Positions 5,601 through 8,600 of a DNA stretch of 64,000 nucleotides are shown here, one piece after another. The notes beneath the pieces were generated by a model. The model had not been told where the DNA came from and ran no database searches. It saw nothing but the letters and a program-made list of their open reading frames with translations. The DNA is from Acholoe squamosa (lineage: Eukaryota > Annelida > Polychaeta > Phyllodocida > Polynoidae). The stretch is taken from positions 58,252,089 through 58,316,088 of the forward strand of contig OX439040.1 of the NCBI GenBank assembly GCA_949317995.1. Direction: 5' to 3'. The stretch's first letter is position 1, and each line of letters starts with the position of its first letter. A program made the translations under genes and the position numbers.

Positions 5601-8600
5601 AGCCAACATGTCTAGACGTCATGTAGCATCTGTGACTTCTTGAAATGATTAGAAATGTTAATTTTTCTAGCACACACATATTGGTTAGACCGACACTGGG
5701 AAGACTACATTGGGATCATATACACTATAACAACAATTATGGCTTACTGTTCTCTTATTTCCAAAGAGCCTATGTTATTGATAAATGGCTATGACAAAGT
5801 GTTAGTTCCAGAAAGCAAAGCAAAATGTTTGAGGCTTTGAAATATTTGAAGTAGCAGCGAAACTTTAGTAATACATTTTTGTCATACACAGAAATAAAAC
5901 GGGAAGATCACTTAAATTCAGGTAAATAATAAATAAGCAGCAGTAAATTGTTGAAAAGCAGTTTTGTTTTGTTGGCAGGGAAGCAGATGCTATCAAAATA
6001 GATTTAATGACTGGATGCTCTTTGCATGGTATTTAATGTACTAAACATTCTCTCAGCATAGATGCAAAACAAAGAACATGGTAAAGAACATGGTAAGTTT
6101 CATTACCATAAGTATTAACCATTTCAAGACAGAAGATCCCATTGATGGTTATATCAGTATAATGCACTGCATATTCCCTGTATTTCTGTTAGAGTCATAA
6201 TATAATGTCTTGTCTTGAAATGGCCAAAGAGACTTTGCTCTTCTTGTTCTATCAAGAAGCATAAATAGTTAAGCAGTCAACAAGGATTGCATTTAATTAT
6301 CACAAAGCTATGGTCACCAGGTTCAACAAAGCTTCATCCTTATTCCATTCAATGCATTGCAAATATACATATCAACTAAGCCAGTTGTGGGTTGCATTAC
6401 TTGGTCGTCTTTACTCCCACAGTAGTTCAGTCACCAATATCTGTGTATGTCCAAACCTTTATTTCTTTTAGGATAAAGCCTTGAGCTCTTCAGTTTTGCA
6501 AGCCCAATGGTTTAAATATTCATGAGCCGCCACTAAACAGAAATGATTGGCAAAGGAGGGCACCCCGGGGCATGCTCCCATGGGGCCTAACAGTGTGCCT
6601 TCATTTTATTAAGCCAGCCCAATTCAGGATCTTTCTATTCAAATCTTATGATTTTATATTATGAATTTTCATGCAAGCTCTTGCAATTCTATAAAATAAA
6701 AAAGGAATGTTCTTTATACAACTCAAAAACAGAAGTGTATATATTTTGAAAAATTATTTTGGACAATTCCTGGGGGGTAAAACCTTGCCCATTACTCATT
6801 TTAAGAACTTCCAAAGTAATTTCTCACTTCTGTAGACCTGTATGAGGCTTGGGCTGAAGTTTGTAGAAGGCAAAAGTTAACTAGTAGGGTGATCTTTGCT
6901 GTTTGACCAACCTTTTCATCATTCCCGTAATATTCCTGCGTATACATTAATGCGTAGAAGGACCCGGCAAAGGCCCAGCAGAAGAAGATGTAAAGAAGCA
7001 CGGCCTGATCACAGCGATTAAAAAGTACAAAAAATGACTGCCTTGGTAACTATATGTAATCATTCTGTCCTCGTCAGACAAAAATAATGATAATGTAAAT
7101 GGCCATGGAGAACCTTTGTCCTAGGGATAAAAATAAATAGAATATATTATGGAAAAGGATAGAGAGGCAGTTCAAATAAAAAAAGATGAAAAAGAAAGCG
7201 TATGATCCAGTTTCACACTGGGTACACTGCTCAATTCGATTGTGTGGACAAGATAGTTTTTGAGAAGATGTGTGTAGAGTGAACACTGGGGTGTGTAACT
7301 ACAGGTTAGGGTCAGGGACAGGACATGGTGGACCACTGAGTCCATTACCAACTGTTTCTGAAGGAGCAACATTAACCTGAACCAGGGAACAATTAAACCT
7401 CAGAAGAAAATCCTCAGAATGTAATCATTAATCCGGATCACTCAGCTGCAACTATAAACCGGTAAAACAAAATCCTTAATTTTCAGTAATTTTAACATTC
7501 ATCATATTACTTTTATGTGCAAATGATGAATTGCAAAAGTAGGTTTGGCAATATCACAAATAGCTGTAATCTTTCTCAAAACAAACTGTAACCTTCCAAG
7601 GTGTCAGTGTGTTTCTTTACTACTATGAAGGAGATAGATATAGCTGTGAATGTCAAAATCTTGAGGTCACATTAGGATTTGCTTCAAGGCTATGTTATAC
7701 AGATGTCCCCTGTTTCCATAATCTTCCACTCTCTTGTGATTTGTACAAGTGTCCAAGGCTTGTGACTACATACCGGGTTGTAATATTGCATCAGTACGTA
7801 AAACGATTCTCCAAAGGCCGCACAAAAAAGGATGAAAACCATCACGGCCTGTGGAGCAAAGACAACCAATATAGGGAGAGACAAACAGTTGCCAACACAC
7901 TGATTCTCATCATAGGGTATTTTTCAGATATATTTTCCTTTGAGCTTTTGAGGAGTTTAGAATTAGATTATGTGCTGAGTGAATGGATATAAACTCATAA
8001 AGAGTGTTTTTGAGCTAGAATTATTATTACATATCCAATACAATAAATATTGTTATGCCCCCTTGTTCCAAAGAAGTTGAGGTCCTAGTTGTATCTTAGC
8101 AAATGCCTTAAATATAGCTATTAGGAAAGGAACACTAGTCAGAAAACTGAATGTACATAATTATAGCATGTTTATATTCATTCACTGAGGATTTGTAGGA
8201 TCTTTTCATGATCCTTGAGAAGGTTGGCATGTTTTAAAACTCTTAAATGAATGCATGAAACTCCCTATGATGAAGAACCATAGATTTCACCATAACTGAT
8301 GCTGGTTTTTCTCTCTGGGTATTTCTAATATTGTGGGGGTTGTCTATGAGCAAAAGTGTCAGTAGTATGCCAGGTGCTAAAACTGTCATATTGTTTGGAC
8401 ATACCGGGCTGATGTATCTCATAGTGGTAAAAAAGGCATCAGCAAATGCCAAACCAAATAAGATCCATAGGAGGCAGACCTGCAATAGTAGGTTCGTGTA
8501 TGGAAACCCTAACTGGATCACTGAATGTTCACAGATAATGAGACAATTATACCTGTTTCTTAGAATTTCTATTGTGTTAATAGTAATAAAATAGTCTATA

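Follow-up and report, generated by a model that had tools for sequence, protein, structure and literature searches.

A TRPA channel gene with three tandem, in-frame S5 exons in the annelid Acholoe squamosa

Introduction

A stretch of 64,000 nucleotides of the Acholoe squamosa genome (C6:58252089-58316088, here called the window) carries a predicted TRPA channel gene in which three successive exons each appear to encode the S5 helix. This locus raises the questions of whether all three exons are genuine parts of the gene, whether each mature mRNA would hold one of them, and what the choice would change in the channel.

Results

The channel gene and its S5 exons

The gene lies on the minus strand of the window; it starts at approximately 25.4 kb if an uncertain first exon is counted, or else at 23.3 kb with the first ankyrin exon, and its stop codon is at 2405. 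Dynamic programming with home-made splice matrices gave a model of 27 exons, to which tblastn with a relative added a pre-S1 exon near 13.8 kb, and the coordinates are given in Table 1. Pfam reported ankyrin families at the N-terminus of the spliced model, and the part from S3 to the C-terminus matched TRPA1 structures (best E 7e-40). The run of ankyrin repeats and the TRPA-like membrane domain place the predicted protein in the TRPA channel subfamily. The Pfam family Ion_trans was not reported for the spliced model at E 0.001, which we counted as contrary evidence, and the window gene was absent from the 141 places found when the genome (1.48 Gb, 63 contigs) was searched for Ion_trans, with matches made exon by exon.

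Table 1. Modelled exons of the channel gene, in order of transcription (positions within the window).
Feature	Position	Strand	Remarks
Possible first coding exon	24943..25392	(-)	Gene model; weak donor, membership in gene uncertain
17 model exons: ankyrin repeats and linker to S1	14119..23305	(-)	Several weak splice sites; limits of exons 12 and 18 most doubtful
Pre-S1 exon, MVEHERDALLSHALCQTVLYQKW	13789..13881	(-)	tblastn with P0001, limits are match limits; absent from first model
S1 exon	13373..13565	(-)	Gene model, tblastn
S2 exon	9981..10100	(-)	Gene model
Exon preceding the cassette: S3, S4, S4-S5 linker	9156..9383	(-)	Ends ...SSLLK, phase 0
S5 exon a	8405..8479	(-)	75 nt, 25 aa, phase 0/0, AG..GT; translation VCLLWILFGLAFADAFFTTMRYISP
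S5 exon b	7774..7848	(-)	75 nt, 25 aa, phase 0/0, AG..GT; translation AVMVFILFCAAFGESFYVLMQYYNP
S5 exon c	6912..7004	(-)	93 nt, 31 aa, phase 0/0, AG..GT; translation AVLLYIFFCWAFAGSFYALMYTQEYYGNDEK
Exon following the cassette: pore helix, filter region and, after these, most of S6	4426..4599	(-)	Starts KVFGN, phase 0; structure match, gene model
Exon: end of S6 and next helix	4032..4100	(-)	Structure match, gene model
C-terminal exons to stop codon	3627-3740, 2962-3083, 2405-2618	(-)	Gene model

The three S5 exons stand in tandem, preceded by the S4-S5-linker exon and followed by the pore exon, and none contains a stop codon. An earlier note on this DNA had described them as three S5-encoding exons in phase 0/0 that start where the linker exon ends, and the translations and junctions agree with that description. 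The introns from linker to pore measure 676, 556, 769 and 2,312 nt, and the linker-to-pore frame is kept with one, two, three or zero S5 copies. Mutually exclusive tandem duplicated exons are expected to be neighbouring homologues that share their phase and their place in the gene, and this arrangement was found here.

Repeats were also observed elsewhere in the window. The possible first exon holds a tandem repeat (25074-25305) of three diverged 78-bp (26-aa) units, each with KR[KR]xSFFRRIS, a motif that we take to resemble basophilic-kinase sites. Between the S1 and S2 exons, positions 10700-11100 are dense in CTCCATGG-like words (imperfect short repeats). A direct duplication at ~30.6-33.6 kb, its copies ~1,390 bp apart, has many ORFs near letter-for-letter in both copies, and positions 58826-58955 comprise about two copies of a 68-bp unit that match at 95%.

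Position of the gene among TRPA channels

TRPA channels have been divided into TRPA1 and basal TRPA (PMC5438368, PMC6451338). In a tree of 37 rows built from the membrane region, with exon b used for the window row, eight TRPA1 rows (fish, coelacanth, gastropods, mussel, springtail) formed a clade of their own (100/99). The window gene sat in another clade, one of 23 rows (97/95) that also holds proteins of hemichordates, echinoderms, annelids, nemerteans and bivalves, a placement that points to a lophotrochozoan; its partners there were the assembled proteins P0001 and P0002 (100/99), and the tree left open the order at the fork uniting the TRPA1 clade, the 23-row clade and two corals. Two very similar TRPA proteins with the same S5, P0004 and P0175, both came from Tubulanus polymorphus, on contigs equal in length, perhaps through a recent duplication on one chromosome.

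A whole-genome search with the linker exon returned the window and at least four other loci, a lower bound. One of them (L031, C2:15.89 Mb) is a canonical TRPA1, 65, 63 and 58% identical over 98 residues to the TRPA1 of Patella, Littorina and Mytilus, and three on C3 (L030, L032, L033) are TRPA-like. The window gene had been labelled TRPA1; its place outside the TRPA1 clade and the presence of a separate canonical locus argue against that name. We infer instead that it is a basal TRPA, a name set from a tree that leaves out the named Capitella and Patiria TRPAbasal sequences. The TRPAbasal proteins described from Capitella and starfish probably belong to the same clade (PMC6451338, PMC5438368). 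In those papers annelid TRPAbasal was proposed as a hypoxia sensor, with behaviour blocked by A-967079; the strings 'splic', 'isoform' and 'exon' do not occur in their main texts, which thus report no S5 alternatives.

Linker and S5 shared one open frame in all four other TRPA-type loci compared, and a GT donor followed directly after S5 in each, so that the intron after S5 is probably shared by these loci and the window gene. An intron ahead of S5 was seen in the window gene alone among the five loci. Intron gain followed by exon duplication would be the simplest history, and loss of the intron before S5 at the other loci is a possible alternative.

Relatives and the predicted structure of the cassette

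The AlphaFold model of P0002 (mean pLDDT 81.7), whose 16 best PDB matches were TRPA1 structures, contains one long helix (508-552) in which linker and S5 are continuous. The equivalent of the cassette starts at residue 527 and comprises helix 527-552 and the turret; with 26 helical residues, it makes the earlier description of each exon as a full S5 helix a fair one.

P0001 and P0002 are whole coding stretches with one S5 each; their contigs span 4,367 and 2,770 bases, so that they are presumably transcripts. The turret of P0001 has approximately the length of that of b, while those of P0002 and Dimorphilus are longer, that of P0002 being comparable to c. Such b-like and c-like turrets would fit a choice between old b and c types, a hint and no stronger because the two proteins, being 55% identical, may come from different genes or species. 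Conservation of the cassette between species was set aside in view of that identity and the single S5 in each. The protein relatives carry one S5 each, and their 90%-identity clusters would hide isoforms.

Resemblance of the S5 exons

Over the first 20 residues, a and b shared 7 identities, a and c 9, and b and c 12; shuffles of residue order reached the observed score 0, 2 and 0 times in 20,000, respectively. Among nine transmembrane and C-terminal exon peptides tested (the last exon left out), S5 alone had extra copies in the window at E < 0.05, with E values against b of 0.0005 for c and 0.011 for a. The resemblance of the three exons is not chance.

An S5 profile was built from 48 S5 segments out of 50 relatives (alignments A1 and A2; P0027 and P0140 were dropped for length) and scanned over 3,359 phase-0/0 AG..GT candidate exons of 45-150 nt on both strands of the window. 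Exons b (19.8 bits) and c (19.0 bits) were the top two candidates. Exon a scored 7.0 bits, narrowly above the best non-cassette candidate (5.8 bits); by profile alone it would be borderline, and this counted against the best explanation. The best 40 candidates included no further S5-like exon in the 2.3-kb intron after c.

Nucleotide differences at codon positions 1, 2 and 3, added up across all three pairs of copies, numbered 19, 20 and 35 of 60 each. Comparison of third with first and second positions gave Fisher P=0.0013 for all pairs and P=0.0036 for the two pairs with a, values that serve as guides because the pairs are non-independent. We read this excess at third codon positions as a sign of selection.

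A nearby TRPA paralogue was considered as donor of the extra exons and rejected: tblastn with the model and six relatives over 264 kb matched one gene alone, among the matches listed (model, P0001, P0006, P0138). The S5 exons look real and old, and the central claim of the earlier note, three divergent, open S5 exons interchangeable in frame within a TRPA channel gene, is supported.

Splice sites and alternative readings

Our preferred reading, to which we give a probability of roughly 0.7, is that a basal TRPA gene contains a stand-alone S5 exon duplicated twice, and that each mature mRNA most likely holds one of a, b and c. The splice sites bear on this reading and on its rivals. All three exons have AG and GT at their borders. 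The earlier note called their acceptors and donors good; their strength is uneven, and those of a and c are weak. Scored with home-made matrices of consensus frequencies, the acceptors of a, b and c reached 1.9, 5.1 and 0.5 (median of 25 other model acceptors, 3.8), b thus having the strongest of the three, and the donors 3.7, 3.7 and 1.6 (median of 25 other model donors, 4.1).

Exon a might accordingly be read as a relic, or as a rarely spliced, drifted copy, with b, c or both in use. It is the most divergent of the three, has a weak acceptor with a poor polypyrimidine tract (0.53), and has the lowest profile score. It is nevertheless open and in phase and retains the F..AF...F..M pattern; in register from the acceptor it scored 41 against b and c, and the runner-up among 10,912 acceptor-anchored open 20-mers in 264 kb reached 24. 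Its differences from b and c also fall mainly at third codon positions (14, 15 and 26 of 40 at positions 1, 2 and 3), and it shares 12 of 20 residues with its closest S5 among the 48 relatives, that of oyster P0006. We consider the relic reading unlikely.

Less likely still is that one S5 exon is constitutive and that the other two are splicing noise or make dead in-frame subunits, with zero or two S5 helices, that lower activity. Products of this kind would be translated, given that all combinations are in frame, and the weak sites of a and c would suit them, but the third-position excess appears in comparisons involving each copy, and a dead-subunit design needs no trio of well-formed S5 helices. 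A misassembly that duplicated one exon is scarcely credible: pairs of copies show 19-29 differences over 60 aligned nucleotides, and the introns had no similarity to one another by blastn.

Discussion

How one S5 exon would be chosen

Under the preferred reading, that of one S5 copy per mRNA, a phase-0 S5 exon set off by an intron between linker and S5 would have been duplicated twice to give interchangeable copies. With every combination in frame, nonsense-mediated decay would be unable to remove wrong products, double inclusion among them. Since decay would be blind and the pore would end up on the wrong side if two S5 helices were included, the choice would have to fall at splicing.

Several mechanisms that could enforce such a choice were considered and put aside. 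For docking-selector RNA pairing, the strongest of 8 shuffles was unbeaten in all six intron pairs (first 900 nt of the last intron). Pairing above the shuffle mean was found in two of the six, the a-b and b-c introns each with the last intron, and these may carry a weak RNA-pairing signal. The AG-free zones of 27, 49 and 31 nt are ordinary for this gene, whose other acceptors show 10-103, which speaks against distant branch points; none of the four donors was U12-like, and the shortest of the four cassette introns, at 556 nt, is not a very short intron of the kind that would cause exclusion. The search of this one genome thus found no hard-wired mechanism by RNA pairing, branch point, short intron or U12 incompatibility, and this was counted against the preferred reading. 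Regulated competition between the weak sites of a and c and the stronger b would be the likeliest remaining mode, and use of the copies may be specific to tissue or stage.

What an exchange of S5 would alter

The channel subunits made with a, b and c would be alike save for S5 and, in c, a longer S5-pore turret with six additional residues. We take the cassette start to align with human TRPA1 S873. The cassette covers the residues aligned to human S873-F877, where a reads V,C,L,L,W, b reads A,V,M,V,F and c reads A,V,L,L,Y. In the human channel S873, T874, V875, V876 and F877 have been described as ligand-site residues, the ligands being A-967079, eudesmol, menthol or an indazole inhibitor (PMC6627658). 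At cassette position 14, in the middle of the helix, the residue is D in a, E in b and G in c. Neither D nor E occurs there in any of the 48 relatives (L 17, Q 9, S 8, V 4, M 3, F 3, G 2, N 1, I 1). A charged residue anywhere within the first 20 positions was seen in 3 of the 48.

The exchanged helix would couple the linker to the pore and hold the S5 portion of the site at which drugs and menthol act on TRPA1, and its exchange should alter gating, ligand sensitivity or both. Co-expression could in addition yield mixed tetramers. The fuller picture of a basal TRPA channel with a three-way switch of S5, in which the drug- and menthol-site helix varies, a and b carry an acid, c is neutral with a longer turret, and mixed tetramers give graded gating, is tentative, its chances falling a little short of even.

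Relation to known systems

Tandem duplicated substitution exons have precedents and are enriched in ion channels (PMC9741552). The systems described in that paper, in which the string 'trp' does not occur, include CACNA1C, CACNA1D and Cacophony with three separate events each, whereas the window gene has one three-way S5 cassette. In NALCN, as in the window gene, tandem exon copies exchange part of a cation-channel pore: pore exons 15a/15b and 31a/31b are mutually exclusive, and exon 15 copies occur in lophotrochozoans among others (PMC3557258). The NALCN exchange, however, concerns pore helices and selectivity filter, in two copies within a four-domain channel, as opposed to S5 in three copies with a single pore exon.

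Mutually exclusive exons also tune channel sensitivity in Drosophila and Anopheles TrpA1 (PMC11471635). Splicing of Drosophila TRPA1 had been brought up for comparison, but it serves as an analogy only, the window gene lying outside the TRPA1 clade; the insect genes, which are TRPA1 proper, exchange the N-terminus and a stretch that separates the ankyrin repeats from the membrane segments, whereas the window gene would exchange S5. TRPM3 is likewise a TRP channel with splice variants. The TRPM3 variant concerns the pore loop and not a duplicated helix exon. Its splicing changes permeation between alpha1 and alpha2 (PMC8057083). In titles and abstract openings of the open-licence PMC literature, no alternative S5 exons of TRPA or other TRP genes were found among the matches listed; the phrase 'mutually exclusive exons' appears in two insect TRP surveys (PMC7143563, PMC6137742). 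The S5 cassette is thus of a kind already known, and its location in the S5 of a TRPA gene and its copy number are apparently new.

A single gene that exchanges S5 and almost nothing else would provide three natural variants in which the part played by S5 in gating and pharmacology could be tested, and, should related animals retain the S5 types, would amount to an ancient mutagenesis series that nature has made of the TRP S5 helix. It would show that TRP channels, as calcium channels and NALCN, are tunable by duplication of pore-domain exons.
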